Source of the DNA: Prochloraceae cyanobacterium
Lineage (GTDB): Bacteria > Cyanobacteriota > Cyanobacteriia > Cyanobacteriales > JASJDA01
Direction of reading: 5' to 3'
Assembly: GCA_030065755.1 (NCBI GenBank)
Contig: JASJDA010000096.1
Location: 1-33,300, forward strand
DNA length: 33,300 nt
Shown: positions 3,466-15,313 of the stretch, one piece after another
How the letters are laid out: each line of letters opens with the position of its first letter
How positions within the stretch are numbered: position 1 is the stretch's first letter
Position numbers and translations under genes: made by a program
Notes under the pieces: model-generated
Told to the model about the DNA's origin: nothing
Database searches by the model: none
What the model saw: only the letters and a program-made list of their open reading frames with translations

Positions 3466-5040
3466 TTATGTAGGCATGACATCAAGCGCACTGATATCAC
3501 TAGGGTTTATAGGAGTATCAATAGATTTGCTCATTAACTTCCTTTTCTTTTGAGAACTCTGGTTATTGAGCTTGTCCCCTACCCTGATTTTCATTCCAAA
3601 GTAGCTATGTCGACGACAACCCTTAACTAACCTTGAAATACGCGCCCAATAACTCCAGACGTGCTTATTTAAATCCACTGGCTTAAATAAGGCGTAAAGG
3701 ACTCTAGGCAAACGCTCCGAAAACCGAAGACTACGACGGGCTAAAACTAATGCTGCTGCTGTTCCACTATTTAACCCATAAAGACTCATGTATTTAGTTA
3801 ATCCAATCAAGCTCGAATATGCTGGATTAACAAGTTTTACTTCAATTCCTGCCAGTTGTGCTTTAGATTTAACTAAATCGCCGAATTTAGAATAAGCAAA
3901 TTGAGACAACATCTTTGCGTACCGTGGCGACCCGTATTCTCTTAATGTAGCTTTCTTTTTACTGAAATCTAATTTTTCGATGGCGATTGGACATCTATAT
4001 TTTGTAGCGATGTTTACAACTTGGCTAATAGCTAAAGAAAAAATATTAGTAATTTGAGCTGAAGATTTATTTTCTAAATCAAAATTAATTTGACCTTTCT
4101 CTTTTAAATTTCCCGTGCCATCGCCATAAGCCCAAGCTATATTATTAACGTTTAGATCTATACCAACACAGCCATTTTTGGGACTAGAAATATGAGGAAT
4201 ATCGGGTAACTCTACGTGAGTATGTAGATACCATTTTTCGTCTCGTTTGACAAATCTGTGAGTTACTGGTTTTTCAGTTCCGTTGCGATATTCTTTACCT
4301 CGTTTGTGTAAAGTTTGAGTTAAAGCAATATTAATAAAATCTTGACCGTATCTAAATTTAATACCATTACAGTTAACTTTCTCGCCAAATTGCTCCCTTA
4401 AGGCAGGTGGAACGGTTATGGTTAAATTACCAAATCTATCTAATCTACATAGTTGATTACCGCTACTATAAGTTTTCGAGCCAACCATGAGAAAATTTGA
4501 CGAGCGAGATTGACGCCAATCCTCTAACCATTCATTACGAGATTTATAACCATTAGCTTCTAGGTTGTATTGAGCCTTAAATAGTTTTTTAGTTCCAAAA
4601 CAAAGAGAGATTTTTCCTGATTTTAAAAGCTTTTCTAATCGTTCTAATTTTTGTTGTAAAGTCCCTAATCTGCGTTTTTTCTGGTGAATTATAAAACGCT
4701 CTTTTTGATTAGATGTTCCTTGTTTAATTTTCTTCTGACTCTGCTTATCAATGCATTTTATCGTTTTTTTTAGACCACTAATGGCTGTTTTTAAATCTTT
4801 TATTTGAATAGCTTGTAACTCTTTGATTGAGCTTAGCTTTCCTTTCAAATTGTGGTGTACATTACGAACAGTAGTGATATCAACAAAGTATTCTGATTGT
4901 ATAAGTTTTTCAATTACACCTATCTTCTCACCAGCCATTAAGCTCACGTGCATTACTCGTTCAATTTTTGAGTACAGTTGGCACATCTCATCTAAGAACG
5001 AGTAAATCTTACTTGGTAGTAGGGTCTGATAAGTAGGCAT
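3466..5040 (-). CDS. TnpB-related (IS605 OrfB-like) protein without zinc finger
   Basis: A 524-residue protein of the long 'TnpB-related accessory' type. Residues 60-140 form a basic coiled-coil-like segment and the C-terminal half carries a RuvC-like fold. RuvC-I Asp lies at 295 in VGIDLN and RuvC-II Glu at 355 in AIEKLDF. The region where RuvC-III should be (NPAYSS...GLNSGTAAALVLARRSLRF, about 405-440) has no Asp in the usual D-x-N-A-A context, and there is no CxxC pair, unlike canonical TnpB. Canonical TnpB is an RNA-guided nuclease of IS200/IS605 elements; nuclease activity here is doubtful or would need a rearranged site. No tnpA is nearby, and no tnsB, tnsC or tniQ that would mark a Cas12k transposon. 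The ATG at 5040 is preceded by an AT-rich leader. Its last codons overlap the left flanking repeat region. Confidence 0.8.
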   Translation of the reverse strand: MPTYQTLLPSKIYSFLDEMCQLYSKIERVMHVSLMAGEKIGVIEKLIQSEYFVDITTVRNVHHNLKGKLSSIKELQAIQIKDLKTAISGLKKTIKCIDKQSQKKIKQGTSNQKERFIIHQKKRRLGTLQQKLERLEKLLKSGKISLCFGTKKLFKAQYNLEANGYKSRNEWLEDWRQSRSSNFLMVGSKTYSSGNQLCRLDRFGNLTITVPPALREQFGEKVNCNGIKFRYGQDFINIALTQTLHKRGKEYRNGTEKPVTHRFVKRDEKWYLHTHVELPDIPHISSPKNGCVGIDLNVNNIAWAYGDGTGNLKEKGQINFDLENKSSAQITNIFSLAISQVVNIATKYRCPIAIEKLDFSKKKATLREYGSPRYAKMLSQFAYSKFGDLVKSKAQLAGIEVKLVNPAYSSLIGLTKYMSLYGLNSGTAAALVLARRSLRFSERLPRVLYALFKPVDLNKHVWSYWARISRLVKGCRRHSYFGMKIRVGDKLNNQSSQKKRKLMSKSIDTPINPSDISALDVMPT

Positions 5041-5142
5041 ATCTGATTATACTAAATTTTCCTGGTCAATTTTGGCTATTTTCTCTGTAAGTATGCTGCT
5101 TCAGATCTATTTAACTTAGGCATCTACTAAAATGAAAAATTA

Positions 5143-6376: not shown

Positions 6377-7159
6377 ATGCCTATAGAAACGCAAAAAATC
6401 ACCGGTGGTTACAAAAATAAAACAGTTATTCGTCAGATAGACCTAACTCTGCAAAATGGCGAATGGCTTAGTTTATTGGGAGCAAATGGATCGGGTAAAT
6501 CTACTTTTCTCAAACTCCTCAGCCGCATTCTCCAGCCGACAAAAGGACTTATTCTTTTAGATGGTAAAGAAATACACGATTTACCTCCTAATATCGTCGC
6601 CCAAAAAATGGCTATTTTGCCCCAACAGCAAACTGTACCCACGGGTTTAACAGTCCATCAGTTAGTGAGTTTGGGTAGAACACCCCATCAATCATGGTGG
6701 CAGTGGGAATTAGACGTTGAAGATCGGCAAAAAGTAGAAGAAGCACTGGTGCAAACCCAAATCGATCGCGAAAGCGATCGCCCAGTTACTCAACTCTCTG
6801 GGGGAGAAAGACAAAGAGCGTTTCTGGCTTTAGCTTTAGCACAAGACCCTAAAATTTTGCTCTTAGACGAGCCGACAACCTATTTGGATATCAATTATCA
6901 ATTACAGTTATTAGAACTGTTAAATCGACTCAAACAGCAGCGAGAATTAACAATTATTACTGTACTCCACGACATCAATTTAGCAGCTAGGTATAGCGAT
7001 CGCCTGGCATTACTCGATCGAGGGCTACTTTACGGGGTGGGAACTCCAGCCGAAATTTTAACTCCAGAAGCACTTATCGATGTATTTGGCGTTAAAGTTG
7101 AGATTATAGATACCCCTGTAGGAATCCAGATTTGTCCGATCGCCTCCTGTGTCACATAG
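6377..7159 (+). CDS. ABC transporter ATP-binding protein of the FecE/FhuC/BtuD type
   Basis: 260 residues with all ABC ATPase motifs: Walker A GANGSGKST (35-43), Q-loop LPQQQ, signature LSGGERQR, Walker B ILLLDEPTTYLD and switch His in TVLHDINLA. The sequence around them fits the iron-chelate/cobalamin subfamily that partners FecCD permeases. It hydrolyses ATP on the cytoplasmic face to drive import. The ATG at 6377 fits the family N-terminus (IETQKITGGYKNKTVIRQIDL). Upstream in-frame codons only translate the C-rich repeat and the end of the permease gene in another frame, so the longer ORF from 6107 is not believed. There is no ribosome site, because the pyrimidine tract directly precedes the ATG; translation may depend on coupling or on a leader unlike typical genes. 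Confidence 0.93.
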   Translation: MPIETQKITGGYKNKTVIRQIDLTLQNGEWLSLLGANGSGKSTFLKLLSRILQPTKGLILLDGKEIHDLPPNIVAQKMAILPQQQTVPTGLTVHQLVSLGRTPHQSWWQWELDVEDRQKVEEALVQTQIDRESDRPVTQLSGGERQRAFLALALAQDPKILLLDEPTTYLDINYQLQLLELLNRLKQQRELTIITVLHDINLAARYSDRLALLDRGLLYGVGTPAEILTPEALIDVFGVKVEIIDTPVGIQICPIASCVT

Positions 7160-7200
7160 AGGTCAGGGGTCAGGGGTCAGAGGTCAGAGGTCAAATAACA
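7160..7200 (+). repeat. GGTCAGG heptamer repeat
   Basis: Four to five copies of GGTCAGG/GGTCAGA lie directly after the ATPase stop codon. This is a classical cyanobacterial short tandemly repeated repetitive sequence. In-frame translation of it (GQGSGVRGQRS) should not be counted as part of the next gene. Confidence 0.8.
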
Positions 7201-7217
7201 AACAACAAACAGCACAT

Positions 7218-8654
7218 ATGTTTGATACTGTAGAAAGTCGTTTTAGGCAAATTAACCCCGAAGTGGACTTTTGCTCTTTACGGCTAGTCGAAGAACGATC
7301 GGAACGCATCAGCGTTCGTCAAGGAATTTTGCAGCCAGTGCAAGACAAATTGGACGTTGGTGCTATGGTTACAGTACACGATCGAGGTGGTACTGGTTAT
7401 GCAGCGACATCAGACCTTTCCCCCAGTGGTTTAAGTGCAGCGGTAGAGCAAGCTAAGATTTGGGCGCAAAAAACGGCAGGAAGCTCGGTTTTCGATTTCA
7501 GTAAGGTGGCAATGCCAGCACCTGTAGGAGAATATTCTACACCAGTAGCCAAATCCTGGGATAGCTTGAGCTTAGCAGATAAAATAGACCTGCTCCAGCA
7601 AACTTGCACGAGTCTGAAAAGTAACGATCGCGTTGTAGATTGGGAAGCGACTCTTTGGTATACAGAAGAAGATATTCTCTATATAACAGCAGATGGAGCG
7701 CGAGTGCGGCAAAAATTGCACCTCATGGCACCCCAGTTGCGAGTTACAGCAGCAGTCGGTAGCAATACTCAAACTCGCAGCTTTGGTCTTTTTGGCGAGA
7801 GTCAGCAAGGAGGACTAGAAGTTCTCGATCGCATTCGCTTTAGAGATCGGGCTCCTCAGTTGAGCGAGGAAGCTTTGCAACTGCTAGAAGCTCCTAATTG
7901 TCCGTCGGAAAAGATGGATCTGTTGCTCACATCAGATCAAATGCTGATTCAAATTCACGAATCGATCGGTCATCCCCTCGAACTCGATCGCATTCTCGGT
8001 GACGAACGTAATTTTGCTGGAACTAGCTTTGTCTCTCTAGATATGTTTGGCAGCTATCAATATGGCTCCGAACTACTCAATGTCACCTTTAACCCAGAGC
8101 ATCCAGAACAACTTGCTAGTTACGGTTTCGACGATTGCGGTTCCCAGGCGGAAAAAACATTCATAATTGAAAAAGGAATTTTAAAACGACCTCTAGGAAG
8201 TTTAATCTCTCAAGCTAGAGCTGGTCTACCTGGCGCCATAGCTAACGCTAGAGCCAGCAGTTGGAATCGACCTCCTATAGATAGGATGGCAAACTTGAAT
8301 ATCGAACCAGGGAACCAAACTTTACAGCAACTAATCAACTCGATCGAACGGGGAGTGTTAATGCGCACCAATTGGTCGTGGTCGATCGATGACTCCCGCA
8401 ATAAATTTCAATTTGGCTGCGAGTGGGGACAATTAATCGAAGACGGTCAGCTAACTAAAGTAGTAAAAAATCCCAATTATCGGGGCATTTCTGCCAGTTT
8501 TTGGCGTAATTTAAAAGGATTAGGGGACAGTTCTACTTTTGAATTGCTCGGCTCTCCTTTCTGCGGTAAAGGAGAACCGACGCAAATTATCCGCGTCGGT
8601 CACGGTAGTCCCGCTTGCGTTTTTGCCAACGTTGATGTATTTGGAGGAGATTAG
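7218..8654 (+). CDS. tldD: TldD-family metalloprotease
   Basis: 478 residues of the TldD/PmbA (U62) family. The zinc-binding motif HESIGH is at 247-252, and a distal Cys at about 449 (SPFCGKGEP) fits the third metal ligand known in E. coli TldD. TldD acts with its inactive partner TldE/PmbA as a cytosolic heterodimer that cleaves unfolded peptides. In E. coli it matures microcin B17, degrades CcdA and supports gyrase-inhibitor sensitivity. The PmbA-like partner follows 7 bases after the stop. I chose ATG 7218 because upstream in-frame codons translate the GGTCAGG repeat. The pair sits between the ATPase and the binding protein of the importer and runs in the same direction, so co-transcription is possible. 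Whether it processes a peptide here is unknown; no RiPP precursor was seen nearby. Confidence 0.92.
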   Translation: MFDTVESRFRQINPEVDFCSLRLVEERSERISVRQGILQPVQDKLDVGAMVTVHDRGGTGYAATSDLSPSGLSAAVEQAKIWAQKTAGSSVFDFSKVAMPAPVGEYSTPVAKSWDSLSLADKIDLLQQTCTSLKSNDRVVDWEATLWYTEEDILYITADGARVRQKLHLMAPQLRVTAAVGSNTQTRSFGLFGESQQGGLEVLDRIRFRDRAPQLSEEALQLLEAPNCPSEKMDLLLTSDQMLIQIHESIGHPLELDRILGDERNFAGTSFVSLDMFGSYQYGSELLNVTFNPEHPEQLASYGFDDCGSQAEKTFIIEKGILKRPLGSLISQARAGLPGAIANARASSWNRPPIDRMANLNIEPGNQTLQQLINSIERGVLMRTNWSWSIDDSRNKFQFGCEWGQLIEDGQLTKVVKNPNYRGISASFWRNLKGLGDSSTFELLGSPFCGKGEPTQIIRVGHGSPACVFANVDVFGGD

Positions 8655-10360: not shown

Positions 10361-10390
10361 TAATATTTGCCTATATTTTTTCTAACTATT

Positions 10391-11263
10391 ATGCCCAGTC
10401 GTTGGATAAAAATAATTTTTGCTTTTCTACTCGGCTTAGCTTTTATCGCCTGTACTGCACCTACTCCCGATCGCGACAATACATCTTCTTCAACTGAGCC
10501 AGCACAGAGAGTAGTTGCACTAACTTCTTTGACCGCTGATATCGTAGAGCAATTGGCTCCAAATACACTGGTTGGTAGTGTTGAGAGTCCTTTGCTGGCA
10601 AAAGATATCCGCTTTCAAGATCTTCCCAAAGTAAGCAATGCTCGAACTCCGCCCAATTTAGAAAAAATTGTGGCTCTCAAACCAGATTTAGTTATTGGCG
10701 CGCGAGGATTTCACGATCGTGCTCTTGACAAATTACAAGATTTAGGCATTGCCACCATAACAACCAAAGTGACTAGCTGGGATGGTTTATTAGAAGTAAC
10801 AAAAACCTTGGCAAAGGCGATCGACGCGGATCCTTCTCCTTTATTAAAACGCTATCAAACTTTTTTAGCGGATATTCCCGATAGTAGCCCTTCAGTCTTA
10901 GTCTTGTTTCAGCGTCAGCCGATTTTATCCCCGAATAAAAATAGTTGGGCTGGAGACTTATTAAACAAATTTAAAGTAAAAAATTTAGCGGCATCAATAC
11001 AGGGAAAATCTCCCTTTCGCGGCTACATAACTCTTTCGGCTGAAAAAATTCTCCAAGAGAATCCAGAGATCGTACTAGTTGCAGATTTCGCTCGACAAGG
11101 AATTCTTCAAGAGTTTAAATCTGAGCCTTTCTGGAGTCAACTGCAAGCTACTCAAAATGGAAGGGTATATATTTTTGAGTATTACGGGCTAGTGAATCCT
11201 GGCAGTATCAATAAAATAGAAGAGACTTGCACAAAGCTTAAAGAAGCTTTGGCAAGTCAATAA
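10391..11263 (+). CDS. Periplasmic substrate-binding lipoprotein, FecB/BtuF type
   Basis: 290 residues. The N-terminus has a basic start (MPSRWIK), a hydrophobic core and a lipobox (FIAC, Cys at about 19), followed by an acidic, Thr/Ser-rich linker. The body shows the class III binding-protein layout: RVVALTSLTADIVEQLAP, NLEKIVALKPDLVIGARG, a long central helix and ENPEIVLVADF. It should deliver an iron chelate or corrinoid to the FecCD permease. I chose ATG 10391 because it gives the correct signal peptide; an in-frame TTG 24 bases upstream adds only hydrophobic residues. It lies 4 kb from the permease, separated by TldD/PmbA and an intron relic, yet it is the only binding protein here. Confidence 0.88.
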   Translation: MPSRWIKIIFAFLLGLAFIACTAPTPDRDNTSSSTEPAQRVVALTSLTADIVEQLAPNTLVGSVESPLLAKDIRFQDLPKVSNARTPPNLEKIVALKPDLVIGARGFHDRALDKLQDLGIATITTKVTSWDGLLEVTKTLAKAIDADPSPLLKRYQTFLADIPDSSPSVLVLFQRQPILSPNKNSWAGDLLNKFKVKNLAASIQGKSPFRGYITLSAEKILQENPEIVLVADFARQGILQEFKSEPFWSQLQATQNGRVYIFEYYGLVNPGSINKIEETCTKLKEALASQ

Positions 11264-11278
11264 GCGATATTGGTTTTT

Positions 11279-11935
11279 TTATCCAAATGCTCTTCTTTTT
11301 GGTACAAGTGTTTCAACAGGATAAATTTGGCGAGAACCTTCAGGAATATAAATCCAACCCAAGTCTTTAAGACGATGAACGAGATTAGATATAGTAACAC
11401 CTAATTCTTCAGCTATTTGATAAAGATGCCGCCATTGAGTCAAATCTCGTTCTTTTTGCTTCTCTAGCAAAATATATTCGGGCATCAATAAACAACTAGC
11501 AAAGTATTGAGCTTGCCATTCTATCCCTTGTAACGTGCTGGCGCTACGGCATAATAAAGGTTCTACTCTTATTTGTATACCTCTATTTTGCAGTCTTAAA
11601 AACCGATTAACTGCTACTGAGTTGACGTGCAGTACCCAATGACCGATTTCGTGAGCGATAGTTGATTCTCCAAAACCACCGCGCAGTATAGGAAGATCTT
11701 CATTAATCTCAATTAATCGATCGAGAGGCAAAATTCTTGCCGCTATTTTCCCTTCTTGGTCATCGGGAATGCTGTCCCAAACTACATCTAACTCCAAGAA
11801 CTCAGCCACTCGACTTGCATCTAAAGGCCATTTGAGAGTATAGTTTGGGTCTTTTTCCATTTGTTTGAGAATATCTGTTGCCTTAGCTTCAATCTCCTGT
11901 TTGTGGATAAAGCGAAATGGTCTAAATATACCCAA
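11279..11935 (-). CDS. ImmA/IrrE-family metallopeptidase
   Basis: 218 residues with the zinc motif HEIGH (95-99) and the downstream Glu-containing helix EWQAQYFASCLLMP (from 139) that is diagnostic of ImmA/IrrE proteases. The C-terminus (NLVHRLKDLGWIYIP) resembles the usual helical tail. Family members cut a partner XRE repressor and so relieve repression, as in ImmA/ImmR of ICEBs1 or IrrE/DdrO of Deinococcus. The partner repressor lies immediately upstream: its stop codon is 5 bases before this start. The start is TTG at 11935, with AAGGAG inside the end of the upstream gene at good spacing, implying translational coupling. The signal that activates it is unknown. Confidence 0.92.
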   Translation of the reverse strand: MGIFRPFRFIHKQEIEAKATDILKQMEKDPNYTLKWPLDASRVAEFLELDVVWDSIPDDQEGKIAARILPLDRLIEINEDLPILRGGFGESTIAHEIGHWVLHVNSVAVNRFLRLQNRGIQIRVEPLLCRSASTLQGIEWQAQYFASCLLMPEYILLEKQKERDLTQWRHLYQIAEELGVTISNLVHRLKDLGWIYIPEGSRQIYPVETLVPKRRAFG

Positions 11936-11940
11936 CTTGA

Positions 11941-12297
11941 CTACTCCTTTGTATTTTTGTGTTCGGACTCTATTGCTTCCTTCAACACTTTCTCAGCAAA
12001 TTCCGGATTTTCTCGTATTCGTCTAAATAAAGCAGGCATAGTTTTGTAATGTTGCTTGAGAAGATCTTCTTCCTTTTGAGGAATGCGACCTGCTAAGAAA
12101 ACCAATTCCTCTTCATCTAGATCTAAATTGCGGGCTAGCGATCGGATTACGTCTTCTTTGGGAGGATAATCAGCTCTGCTGTTCTCTAACTTGGATAAAT
12201 AAGTAAAATCTAGCCCGATTCGCTTCGCTAGTTCTCTTTGAGAGTAAGCTTTTTCTTTACGAGCTTGTCGAATAACTTTACCAAAGTTCTGTTCCAC
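11941..12297 (-). CDS. XRE-family HTH repressor, partner of the ImmA/IrrE protease
   Basis: 118 residues. The first 66 form a Cro/cI-type helix-turn-helix (IRQARKEKAYSQRELAKRIGLDFTYLSKLENSRADYPP), with the recognition helix around FTYLSKLENS. The tail is charged and helical and may hold the protease cleavage site. It is co-transcribed with the protease gene downstream and diverges from the coiled-coil gene at 12582. By analogy with DdrO/IrrE and ImmR/ImmA it probably represses its own operon and perhaps the divergent genes; direct repeats in the 280-base intergenic region are candidate operators. The ATG at 12297 is preceded by GGAGGAGA at 8 bases. Confidence 0.92.
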   Translation of the reverse strand: MEQNFGKVIRQARKEKAYSQRELAKRIGLDFTYLSKLENSRADYPPKEDVIRSLARNLDLDEEELVFLAGRIPQKEEDLLKQHYKTMPALFRRIRENPEFAEKVLKEAIESEHKNTKE

Positions 12298-12416
12298 TTG
12301 TCTTCTCCTCCTTTATTGAGTATATTAGTATTACTTGAAAAAAAAAATCAATTTATAGTAGGCGCGAACATCAAACCGTTGATATTATGGGTATAGAAGC
12401 AGTTGAACAAAATTTC

Positions 12417-12448
12417 ATAATAGCGAGAGCCAGATCCTATAATAGCGA
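12417..12448. promoter_or_regulatory. Candidate operator: two ATAATAGCGA direct repeats 22 bp apart
   Basis: ATAATAGCGA occurs at 12417-12426 and again at 12439-12448, start-to-start 22 bp, about two helical turns, so both copies face the same side of the DNA. A weaker third copy (GATAGTGAGA) follows near 12460. They sit in the shared 283-base region between the repressor gene and the coiled-coil genes, the expected place for operator sites. Binding is inferred. Confidence 0.4.
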
Positions 12449-12581
12449 ATTTGACAGCCGATAGTGAGATATTCAACAAATATGTAGGGAAATATATAAC
12501 TGTAGCCTGACGACAATCGCGATCGTCGGAAACAAATTTTTCACTCTTTTAAATAACAGACAAGTATCGAGGAGACAAGTC

Positions 12582-13571
12582 GTGAATCAAGAAGTAGCCA
12601 AAGAAGGCAAATACCAGATCCTGACAGCGTTTAGCAAATTAATCGCCGAATACAAACAAAGCGACTCGAAAGTAGCAACTAAAGAAGAAGAAGCAGAAAA
12701 ACAAAAAAACCAACAACTCCTCGAAACTGTTTCCGACTATACAGTTGATAATATTGTCAATGGGATGGCTTCTTTGCAACTAGATTTTGGGAGTGTCATC
12801 AACGAACTCTCCGTCAACTTGGACGCTGAGTCTTCCAAATTAGACGAACTCAAGAAAGCCATAGCCGTTAAAAGCGAGAACTTAAAACAATTACGTAAAG
12901 TACGCTTAGTAGCCGACGCACTCTACATTCTCAGACAGGAACACCAAGAAAAATTAAGAACTTTACAAGAAAATATTGCTAGTCAGCAAGAAGCCATAGA
13001 AAAAGACATGGCTAAAATGCGCAAAAACTGGGAAAGAGAGCAACAAGAGTTTGAGACAAGAATAACAGAAGAAACAGAATTATTGACCAAAAAACGGGAA
13101 CGAGAAGCAGAGGACTATCAATATGAAATTGAGCGAATTCGCAAAATAGAAATGGACGAATATGAAGAGACAAAACGGCAACAGACGAGGGAATTACAAG
13201 AAAGCGATCGAGAGAAAGAAAAAGCTTGGCAAGAAAGAGAGAAGTTTCTAACAGACGATCGAGAAAAATTCCAGGAAAATCAACAGAAAATAGAAGGATT
13301 TGAAGCGAAGCTCAAACAAGAATATCAAAAAGCCAAAGAAGAAGCCATCAAAAAAGCTCAAGACGAAGCCAAAGTAAGAGCAGATTTATTTGAAAAAGAG
13401 TGGGAAGCTGTCGAAGAAGGTTATCAATTAAAAATCCAATCTCTACAACAAAAAATTGAACGACAAACCGAACAAATATCTGAATTGACCAAACAGTTAC
13501 AAGAAGTAACTACCCAAGCTCAAAACTTAGCTATGAAAGCTTTTCCAACTTCTAATAACGGTCAAGGTTAA
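12582..13571 (+). CDS. Coiled-coil protein, first of a paralogous tandem pair
   Basis: 329 residues, almost entirely long charged helix rich in Glu, Lys and Gln. A less charged segment near 50-75 (NIVNGMASLQLDFGSVINELSVNL) aligns with a segment of the next protein, and both end in QAQNLAMKAF/QVQDLAVKAI, so the two genes are paralogues. There is no signal peptide and no membrane span. GTG start at 12582 with GAGGAG 7 bases upstream. Function is not recognised; architectures like this suggest filament or scaffold formation. It diverges from the XRE/ImmA pair and may be controlled by it. Codon use looks like the neighbours, apart from AAA/GAA richness driven by composition. Confidence 0.8.
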   Translation: MNQEVAKEGKYQILTAFSKLIAEYKQSDSKVATKEEEAEKQKNQQLLETVSDYTVDNIVNGMASLQLDFGSVINELSVNLDAESSKLDELKKAIAVKSENLKQLRKVRLVADALYILRQEHQEKLRTLQENIASQQEAIEKDMAKMRKNWEREQQEFETRITEETELLTKKREREAEDYQYEIERIRKIEMDEYEETKRQQTRELQESDREKEKAWQEREKFLTDDREKFQENQQKIEGFEAKLKQEYQKAKEEAIKKAQDEAKVRADLFEKEWEAVEEGYQLKIQSLQQKIERQTEQISELTKQLQEVTTQAQNLAMKAFPTSNNGQG

Positions 13572-13612
13572 ATCGAGCAAAAAAAATTGTAAATAGTCGG
13601 GGAAGAATAACA

Positions 13613-14686
13613 GTGGTCGCGAGAAAAATAACAGCAAAAAATACCAAGGCAGAAATCTTAGAAGCTTTAAATGAATTAAAAAAAGAAAAGTCTGCCTTAG
13701 AGTCAGAGAATAAAAAACTCAAAAACAATACACCTGTAAAAACTAGCCAAGTGAATAATAGTAAACCCGTGGAACAAACTAAAAACGATCGTCAAAATAT
13801 AAGTCAGGTAATTCAAAACCTAGAACAATTGCAGGTAGGGTTTGGGAGTGCAGTAAGTAATTTATCAGAACAACTAATCGCCGAAGCATCAGCCTTAGAA
13901 GAAATTCAAAATTCACTAACAGAAGAGACAACCCAATTACAAGAATTACACAGTTTAGAATCAGTTGAAGAAGACACCTTAGACAATTTGATTCAGTCTT
14001 ATGAAGAAAGTGCTAAGACATTTGAAGAAGAACTTGCTCGACAAAAAGAAACTTTAGACCAACAAATACAAGACTTCAAGAAATCTTGGCAAAAAGAGCA
14101 AGAAGAACGCGATCGAGAGATAAAAGAACGTAATTTAAACGATCGAAAAACTCGCCAAAGAGACGAAGAGGAATATAAATACAATCTGGAATTGGAAAGA
14201 AATTTGAACGAAGAAGAATACGAACAGACAAAGAACGCCCTATACAAAGAATTGCACGAATCTCGCGAAGAGCAAGAAAAACAGTGGAAAGAGAGAGAAG
14301 AAAGTATTAGTAAGCAAGAAAAAGAATATGCTGAAGCCAAAGAAAAAGTAGAAGCTTTCGAGAAAGAATTAGAGCAAAATATCAAAAATGGAAAAGACAA
14401 TGGACGCAATATCGGTAATTATCAAGCTAAAGTGAAAGCAGATTTGCGTGGGAAGGAAGTTGAAGGACAGAAACAAAATTATCAACTGCAAATACAATCT
14501 TTAGAAGAGACAATTTTGAATCAAGAAGAGAGAATTCAAAATCTATCCAAACAACTCGATGCAGCCCTCAAACAAGTTCAGGATCTAGCTGTTAAAGCAA
14601 TAGAAGGCAATTCTAATCGAAATTCTTTCCAAGCTATTAAAGAAATTGCTTTAGAGCAAGCTAAAAATCCACAGAAGAGCAAATAA
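13613..14686 (+). CDS. Coiled-coil protein, second of the paralogous pair
   Basis: 357 residues of charged helix. The N-terminus (ITAKNTKAEILEALNELKKEKSALE) looks like a short helical module before a disordered linker (KTSQVNNSKPVEQTKNDRQ). Next comes the conserved block QNLEQLQVGFGSAVSNLSEQL shared with the first paralogue, then about 200 residues of continuous coiled coil with a regular EEYEQTK/EEYKYN pattern. GTG start at 13613 after GGGGAAGA; the gap to the first gene is only 41 bases, so one operon is likely. The acidic and basic heptads of the two proteins could let them co-assemble. No enzymatic motif was seen. Confidence 0.78.
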   Translation: MVARKITAKNTKAEILEALNELKKEKSALESENKKLKNNTPVKTSQVNNSKPVEQTKNDRQNISQVIQNLEQLQVGFGSAVSNLSEQLIAEASALEEIQNSLTEETTQLQELHSLESVEEDTLDNLIQSYEESAKTFEEELARQKETLDQQIQDFKKSWQKEQEERDREIKERNLNDRKTRQRDEEEYKYNLELERNLNEEEYEQTKNALYKELHESREEQEKQWKEREESISKQEKEYAEAKEKVEAFEKELEQNIKNGKDNGRNIGNYQAKVKADLRGKEVEGQKQNYQLQIQSLEETILNQEERIQNLSKQLDAALKQVQDLAVKAIEGNSNRNSFQAIKEIALEQAKNPQKSK

Positions 14687-15034: not shown

Positions 15035-15313
15035 TTATCTGGCTAATTCGTAATTATAAATGCCCGCAATTAAATTACTTCTCAAGCCAAATCTCTTATG
15101 ACGATTTCGATATCGATAGGATAAAATCTTGAAGATTTTTAAGGGACGATTAATATGTTCAACTACGACTCTTAATCGATTTAATTTGCGATTATATTTC
15201 TTCTGTTCTTTTGTCAACTTACCGCCTCGTGGTTTTTTAATAGGAGTTTCACTTAAGTCATGAATTTTAGCAATTCCTTGATATCCTTTATCTGCTATAA
15301 CTTTAAGTAATTT
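15035..15313 (-). pseudogene. IS5-type transposase, C-terminal remnant
   Basis: Translation of the minus strand from about 15313 to 15035 gives a continuous transposase C-terminus: VIADKGYQGI (the DDE second-Asp region), then KKPRGGKL, NRLRVVVEHINRPLKIF (the Glu of the DDE triad in VEH) and a tail LRSNLIAGIYNYEL. This matches IS5-family transposases. The N-terminal two thirds, including the first catalytic Asp, are absent, because the frame runs directly into the PEP-CTERM gene at about 15314. The remnant cannot transpose. The 3' flank, with ATTGATTAATTCC and poly-T stretches, may contain the old element end. Confidence 0.85.

Follow-up and report, generated by a model that had tools for sequence, protein, structure and literature searches.

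A CapH/CapP-like repressor-protease switch predicted to control a ZicK/ZacK-type gene pair in a Prochloraceae cyanobacterium

The DNA analyzed here (the window) is a stretch of 33,300 nucleotides from a Prochloraceae cyanobacterium (GCA_030065755.1, contig JASJDA010000096.1, positions 1 to 33,300), which corresponds to contig C56 in a cyanobacterial assembly 8.46 Mb in size; genomes, contigs, loci and families are cited below by our handles (G, C, L and f). Its subject is a locus at which genes for an XRE-type repressor (XRE) and an ImmA/IrrE-type protease (ImmA) diverge from two genes for coiled-coil proteins, CC1 and CC2, referred to as zicK and zacK for reasons given below. An original prediction, made by a model from the sequence, had placed four such genes here, and the open reading frame coordinates agree with it, as do Pfam matches of the regulators to Peptidase_M78 and HTH_3 and the 41-base gap between the coiled-coil genes (13572-13612). 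We infer that CC2 lies in one operon with CC1, whose nearest named relative (72% identity) comes from a Prochloraceae metagenome-assembled genome. The features of the locus are:

11279..11935, minus strand: ImmA/IrrE-type (M78) metallopeptidase, CapP-like, with HEIGH motif and conserved Glu139 (Pfam, PADLOC, PDB profile, alignment)
11941..12297, minus strand: XRE repressor, helix-turn-helix (HTH) and three C-terminal helices, CapH/ImmR/DdrO-like (Pfam, PADLOC, AlphaFold2 (AF2), VIA-align)
12335..12351, unstranded: exact operator-like palindrome TTGA-N9-TCAA, XRE-proximal, N9 centre all A (motif scan)
12359..12374, unstranded: degenerate operator-like site, right arm TCAA alone kept, at the expected zicK -35 position (judged by eye and by spacing in relatives)
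12383..12388, plus strand: putative -10 box TATTAT of the zicK promoter (by eye; relative place as in relatives with XRE in cis)
12403..12418, unstranded: operator-like palindrome TTGA-N8-TCAT with one mismatch, at the O2 position (motif scan)
12582..13571, plus strand: CC1 (coiled-coil 1), probable orthologue of Alr4504 (ZicK) (synteny)
13613..14686, plus strand: CC2 (coiled-coil 2), probable orthologue of Alr4505 (ZacK) (synteny; tandem with CC1 in relatives)

ImmA, of 218 aa, matches Pfam PF06114 (Peptidase_M78) with E=1.1e-10 and has capP (4.6e-17) as its best PADLOC match. The single ImmA sequence gave no match in a search against the PDB, and the best PDB match of the ImmA family profile was CapP (7t5t, 5.7e-6). 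In 42 aligned ImmA sequences, H95, E96 and E139, the last of which we take to be the third metal ligand of the M78 site, are invariant and H99 is nearly so; the HExxH site of the M78 family thus appears to be intact. XRE matches Pfam HTH_3 (4.6e-12), and in PADLOC HTH_VI (6.2e-13) stands on top, followed by capH (7.3e-10). The AF2 model of XRE, with a predicted local distance difference test score (pLDDT) of 80.5, shows an HTH and three further helices, and VIA-align gave Z scores of 11.8 for ImmR, 11.5 for CapH and 10.3 for DdrO; as only the common HTH part was resolved, this comparison cannot tell the three repressors apart. Both XRE and ImmA have PHROG matches, and distant ImmA relatives, 27-42% identical over the matched part, are carried by 41 viral contigs. 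The genome from which the window derives has a second XRE and ImmA (L087:5371-6595, G000:C34), divergent from each other and near thiC; neither zicK nor an Argonaute gene was seen beside this copy.

CC1 and CC2 share 35% identity across 274 aa. Since E, K, R and Q together make up 46% of the residues of CC1 and 45% of those of CC2, and since the two contain runs of 168 and 181 residues, respectively, free of proline and glycine, it is reasonable to call them coiled coils, which is in keeping with the two paralogous coiled-coil proteins originally predicted. Neither protein has a Pfam family up to E 0.1, nor a PADLOC match better than 0.02, the only one at that level being ZorA (E 0.02) for CC1; among PADLOC families of the cyclic oligonucleotide-based antiphage signaling system (CBASS) no match was obtained for either up to E 0.1. 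Among the 243 genomes sampled from the order, 153 have relatives of CC1, and as 150 of these contain two matches and only 3 (G017, G106, G123) a single one, pairing of CC1 and CC2 is more than chance. In family f33, taken to be Nostocaceae, 141/217 genomes carry CC1 (E 1e-45), and CC1 and CC2 are 47-52% and 50-54% identical, respectively, to the pairs found there. The pair was tandem in all 12 f33 loci inspected and in 10 of them, as judged by eye, divergent from genes for a response regulator, a membrane kinase and a PhoU-like protein; a family check of one such locus (L123) with NCBIfam named the neighbours PhoB, PnpS/PhoR and PhoU, of which only PhoU scored above its cut-off. The genes alr4504 and alr4505 reportedly encode the proteins described as ZicK and ZacK in FEBS J 2021. 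According to PMC7564538, all4501, all4502 and all4503 of Nostoc PCC 7120/7118 are phoU, sphS and sphR, and because the f33 pairs adjoin such genes, CC1 and CC2 are most likely the orthologues of alr4504 and alr4505, which lie beside sphR (all4503). In a review (PMC7766704), ZicK and ZacK are described as strictly interdependent in forming heteropolymers that may stabilize the linear trichome in Anabaena, and a proteomic study of treatment with β-N-methylamino-L-alanine reports a 20-fold increase of Alr4505 and a 4.35-fold increase of Alr4504, both of which it puts under NtcA (PMC8147232). Judged by synteny, the coiled-coil pair would therefore be a described family forming intermediate-filament-like heteropolymers, and the window proteins may be expected to form filaments, as the original prediction had proposed; its statement that the pair has no known domain or system is not supported. 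A phage origin of the pair was considered, because phrog_29668 matches both proteins (8.8e-14 and 2.8e-17), and was rejected, as tblastn of CC2 against 50,697 phage records gave no match and scans of viral contigs with CC2 and with the CC1 alignment gave no relative; phrog_29668 may derive from predicted prophages. A plasmid location of the pair, for which a single plasmid record was found, was likewise rejected.

To describe the linkage of regulators and coiled-coil genes, the 243 genomes of the order were searched for ImmA at E 1e-12 and for XRE at E 1e-22, yielding ImmA in 111 and XRE in 132 genomes. Linkage was counted in the 149 of 153 CC1 genomes with listed places (G017, G099, G107 and G203 fall outside). 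XRE lies within 5 kb upstream of CC1 and divergent from it, always in the same arrangement, in 59 of the 149, elsewhere in the genome in 46, and gave no hit in 44. ImmA is also linked in 43 of the 59 and not in the other 16, and it is never linked to CC1 without XRE (43/43). In the 12 f33 loci inspected, XRE-ImmA was in no case found beside the pair.

A palindrome, TTGA-N8/9-TCAA, recurs in the divergent regions, where it was first spotted by eye. Its enrichment was evaluated against 100 dinucleotide shuffles after merging loci identical over the first 200 bases, with near-identical relatives remaining. Loci in which the cassette directly faces zicK (direct-zic set) contained 39 exact sites in 20 loci versus a shuffle mean of 0.56, with at least one site in 19/20 and at least two in 16/20, and loci with the X genes described below (X set) contained 89 in 29 loci versus 0.43. 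The values were 10 in 9 loci versus 0.07 for the Argonaute set (site present in 7/9) and 21 in 23 loci versus 0.46 for other XRE loci (site in 18/23). This enrichment is partly circular, because the motif first came from some of these loci. At zicK loci without an adjacent XRE, sites occurred in 4/24, and all four genomes have XRE elsewhere. Two exact sites 35-50 bases apart are present in 41 of the 50 direct-zic and X loci, and 40 of these 41 share one promoter geometry: the left arm of the first site doubles as a -35 box (TTGACN) 17-18 bases ahead of TANNNT, while the second site, starting 36-43 bases after the first, covers the expected transcription start. Such a pair of sites over the -35 box and the start is the layout expected of repressor sites, to which XRE would bind. 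The exact double site at zicK is found in all 16 genomes with XRE but not ImmA linked in cis. The window is among the 9 of 50 cis loci without an exact pair; at least one exact match appeared in 1.4% of its shuffles, and the combination of an exact site with another near one in 0.45%. No exact site was found in the 300 bases upstream of the pair in any of the 12 f33 loci. A wider regulon was considered and rejected; in many genomes the exact double-site pattern turned up about as often across the whole genome as its control did (2 versus 2 in the window's own genome, where the two matches are on small contigs with no clear target). Among genomes with ImmA and no listed CC1, a double site stands beside XRE in G125, G139, G152, G174, G175 and G189; G139 has X2 by this double site, G125 showed no divergent gene, and such double sites may be relics of a lost partner. 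In G116, operator-like repeats also occur away from zicK (L337:6952-7048 and L338:4894-4999), one group lying between convergent genes, and may represent a small repeat element.

An independent test was provided by genomes in which XRE lies elsewhere. The 461 bases upstream of zicK (fewer in L260, 198, and in L287 and L309, 365 each) were compared between the 46 genomes with XRE elsewhere and 43 of the 44 without an XRE hit; in G188, zicK is near a contig end and its upstream stretch was outside the examined set. Exact sites were present in 24/46 genomes with XRE elsewhere, 23 of them having at least two, versus 0/43 without XRE (Fisher 2.7e-9, genome relatedness uncorrected). When G002, G108, G211, G182, G198 and G016 were left out after the fact, the comparison of 24 versus 59 genomes gave 2.2e-21, again uncorrected for relatedness. 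Among the 22/46 genomes without an exact site, 16 (including G072 and G089) have only an Argonaute-partnered ImmA, two of which (G185, G205) also show a further XRE hit without ImmA; in G002, G108 and G211, zicK stands behind X2 instead of coming first, and in G182 zicK is at a contig end. Only exact sites discriminate, one-mismatch sites being present in 13/43 genomes that lack an XRE hit. These results show that operator-like sites at zicK track XRE even when XRE lies elsewhere, and the predicted control of the coiled-coil pair by the regulator pair is thereby supported, at the level of sequence, by sites shared in cis and in trans. The original prediction of a four-gene unit was to fall if the pair proved common without the regulators. 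By position this is the case, an adjacent regulator being absent in 90/149 genomes; by regulation it is not the case in 24 of these 90, because exact zicK sites and an XRE elsewhere are found there, and the other 66 are without sites or outside the examined set.

The cassette of XRE and ImmA also faces other genes. Partners were counted for 128 of 130 ImmA hits, fragments in G017 and G065 being left out: the cassette faces zicK without X2 in 21 (one, in G017, with broken genes), X2 and zicK in 23, X2 alone in 8 (G002 and G182 at contig ends), a relative of the Argonaute at L168 in 37 (two of them a tandem pair at one locus, G033), and, at the cut-offs used, none of these in 39, of which at least 3 are damaged or cut (G112, with a Cas4-like gene and an insert; G120; and G211, where X1 was seen). 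The original prediction of a self-contained switch is therefore not supported, since the same cassette family fronts Argonaute and X1-X2-X3 genes. In 23 of the linked loci XRE and CC1 are separated by X2, which lies on the strand of CC1 and is one of up to three genes, X1, X2 and X3; Pfam and NCBIfam gave no match for X2, and sequences distantly related to it are found on plasmids of cyanobacteria. X1-X2-X3 operons under the same operator-like sites, often upstream of zicK, were seen at L088:4190-6081, L089:4034-5494, L090:3954-6868 and L091:5244-6873. The Argonautes of L168 and L174 are of class II according to PADLOC and each adjoins a gene for a Cas4-like nuclease, the other Argonautes being assigned by similarity only; no match to the L168 type was found in the window's genome at E 1e-30. 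Argonaute-type operons that include a Cas4-like gene and diverge from XRE-ImmA were seen at L168, L171, L173, L174, L175, L177, L178 and L180, and the regulator of these cyanobacterial Argonautes may be a CapH/CapP-like switch. Beside the Argonaute of L175, a 381-aa open frame resembling a fused XRE-ImmA (3994-5139) is followed by a second ImmA, and at L178 (G112) a 483-aa open frame, by eye possibly a transposase (6674-8125), follows the Cas4-like gene, the Argonaute match starting further on. In a tree of 61 ImmA sequences, one well-supported branch (99/99) unites the full set of 17 direct-zic sequences and 7 of the 8 trans sequences with 9 from genomes lacking zicK and the second copy of the window's own genome. 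Another branch (95/86) contains 13 sequences from loci with X genes and zicK, 2 with X genes, the eighth trans sequence (G005) and one that comes without zicK; none of the 10 Argonaute-partnered sequences belongs to either branch.

The reading we favour, at a probability of roughly 0.7, is that an autoregulated switch of the CapH/CapP, ImmR/ImmA and DdrO/IrrE kind represses zicK-zacK until the protease inactivates the repressor. It is carried by the observed linkage, the sites placed at the promoter, the sites that track XRE in trans, and the conserved active site of the protease. XRE would bind the copies of TTGA-N8/9-TCAA that overlap the -35 box and the start of zicK transcription, and a further site on the XRE side, and would thereby keep zicK-zacK low; where its genes lie elsewhere it would act in trans, and some genomes would keep the repressor alone. 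ImmA, by analogy with its family, would cleave XRE and release the operon. The weakest step is the trigger, probably single-stranded DNA from damaged or invading DNA, which is suggested because PprI-DdrO and CapP-CapH are analogous; PprI, and CapP as cited there, are activated by single-stranded DNA according to PMC10904395. A broader proposal would make the ZicK/ZacK filaments the inducible arm of a response to DNA damage or invaders in many cyanobacteria, built only once a CapP-like protease senses single-stranded DNA and destroys the repressor, with the same cassette family also guarding Argonaute in related genomes; we hold this as a tentative idea, improbable as it stands.

Several results weigh against the favoured switch. 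No ImmA hit was obtained in 62/149 listed CC1 genomes and no XRE hit in 44/149, and zicK-zacK can therefore do without the switch. Among the 16 genomes with XRE alone in cis, 8 have PF06114 above its cut-off and 8 lack it, and no M78 protein of the former 8 (open frames of at least 299 aa) has its gene on the zicK contig at a distance of 200 kb or less; cleavage by this protease therefore cannot be the sole mode. As 24 genomes have ImmA but no listed CC1, the cassette must have other or lost targets. The 24 genomes with sites in trans come from only three families (f5 with 9, f20 with 7, f21 with 8), G198 and G016 have an XRE hit and no exact site, which is unexplained, and the cis locus L017 has no exact site. 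In the window itself the sites are partly decayed, one being exact with a poly-A centre, one having one mismatch and one being single-armed, and at least two near (one-mismatch) sites were reached in 8.2% of shuffles. An AF2 model of ImmA from 4 sequences (pLDDT 52.6) was too poor for comparison and was not used.

Two other explanations were considered. ZicK and ZacK, with X1-X2-X3 where present, might be inducible effectors against invaders or damage, their role in the trichome shape of Anabaena being secondary. The same XRE-ImmA and operator families face Argonaute in 37/128 cases with sites in 7/9 loci, ImmA is nearest to CapP of CBASS, and X2 has relatives on plasmids; however, CC1 and CC2 lack any weighty match to defence families in a PADLOC search that did not extend to the flanks of the pair, ZorA at E 0.02 concerning CC1 only, and in f33, where 141/217 genomes carry CC1, the switch adjoined the pair in 0/12 loci, so that we regard a defence module as possible but rather unlikely. 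Equally doubtful is a housekeeping arrangement, in which XRE adjusts the amount of filament to the needs of growth or cell shape and any protease present answers a cue other than DNA: XRE-only loci keep operator-like sites without a linked protease and the coiled-coil pair is widespread, but linked ImmA is always accompanied by XRE (43/43) and its family retains the active site in 42 sequences.

Pairs of M78 and XRE proteins are typical of phages and of integrative and conjugative elements (ICEs), and the regulators could stem from an ICE or prophage, as its immunity module (ImmR/ImmA), and lie beside the coiled-coil genes by chance. The PHROG matches of both regulators and the 41 viral contigs would fit, as would a transposase remnant, a short open frame on the minus strand at 15035-15217 (Pfam DDE_Tnp_4, 1.3e-5) that lies 350 bases past CC2. 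Against this, no integrase or phage structural gene was seen by eye in the nearby open reading frames, only some of the nearest genes having been family-searched, ImmA and its viral relatives share only 27-42% identity in the part that matches, the linkage is seen repeatedly in many families, and the zicK sites follow XRE in trans; a chance neighbourhood is thus very improbable. XRE antitoxins are common, and a toxin-antitoxin locus with a coiled-coil partner as toxin would have some footing in a protein network suggesting that alr4505/alr4504 may take part in such a system (PMC8147232), but many genomes have the pair without XRE and others ImmA/XRE without the pair, and this reading is likewise very improbable.

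Compared with systems already described, the tandem coiled-coil pair has the gene order of ZicK/ZacK in Anabaena PCC 7120; it differs from the f33 loci of this type, all 12 of which lack XRE-ImmA beside the pair and an exact upstream site. In CBASS, the XRE repressor CapH and the M78 protease CapP diverge from the operon that they control. The window shares this divergent arrangement, with CapP as best PADLOC and PDB match, whereas its cassette family faces zicK-zacK, Argonaute or X1-X2-X3 and not CBASS. With DdrO/IrrE (PprI) of Deinococcus it shares a repressor and an M78 protease, and promoters with a common motif, here also in trans; however, the structural match of DdrO to XRE covers the HTH only, ImmA, with its 218 aa, leaves no room for the additional GAF-like domain found in PprI, and the recurrent targets seen here are confined to XRE's own side and the operons of zicK, X1 and Argonaute. 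ImmR/ImmA of ICEBs1 likewise combines a small XRE repressor, whose DNA-binding domain gave the Z of 11.8, with a small M78 protease, but no integrative element was recognized around the genes inspected. Class II cyanobacterial Argonautes with a Cas4-like nuclease share the cassette family and operator type and differ in that zicK has no exact site where the only ImmA hit is Argonaute-partnered (16/16).

In the literature searched, mostly outside subscription papers, no paper joining ImmA, XRE, cyanobacteria and coiled-coil was found, nothing on such a switch appeared by title for IrrE, cyanobacteria and prokaryotic Argonaute, and for ZicK/ZacK-type filaments only regulation by NtcA was noted (PMC8147232). 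This is a known switch type with a target not described for such a switch in that literature. It links intermediate-filament-like proteins of cyanobacteria with the protease-repressor switches of CBASS and of the Deinococcus damage response, a type better known from anti-phage defence and DNA-damage responses, and one regulatory cassette family fronts cytoskeletal, Argonaute and uncharacterized operons. With a putative operator, promoter and gene set defined, the timing and purpose of filament production become directly testable. Next to the locus, and with no sign of belonging to the switch, a gene for a periplasmic binding protein (Peripla_BP_2, 10367-11263) lies convergent with the protease gene.

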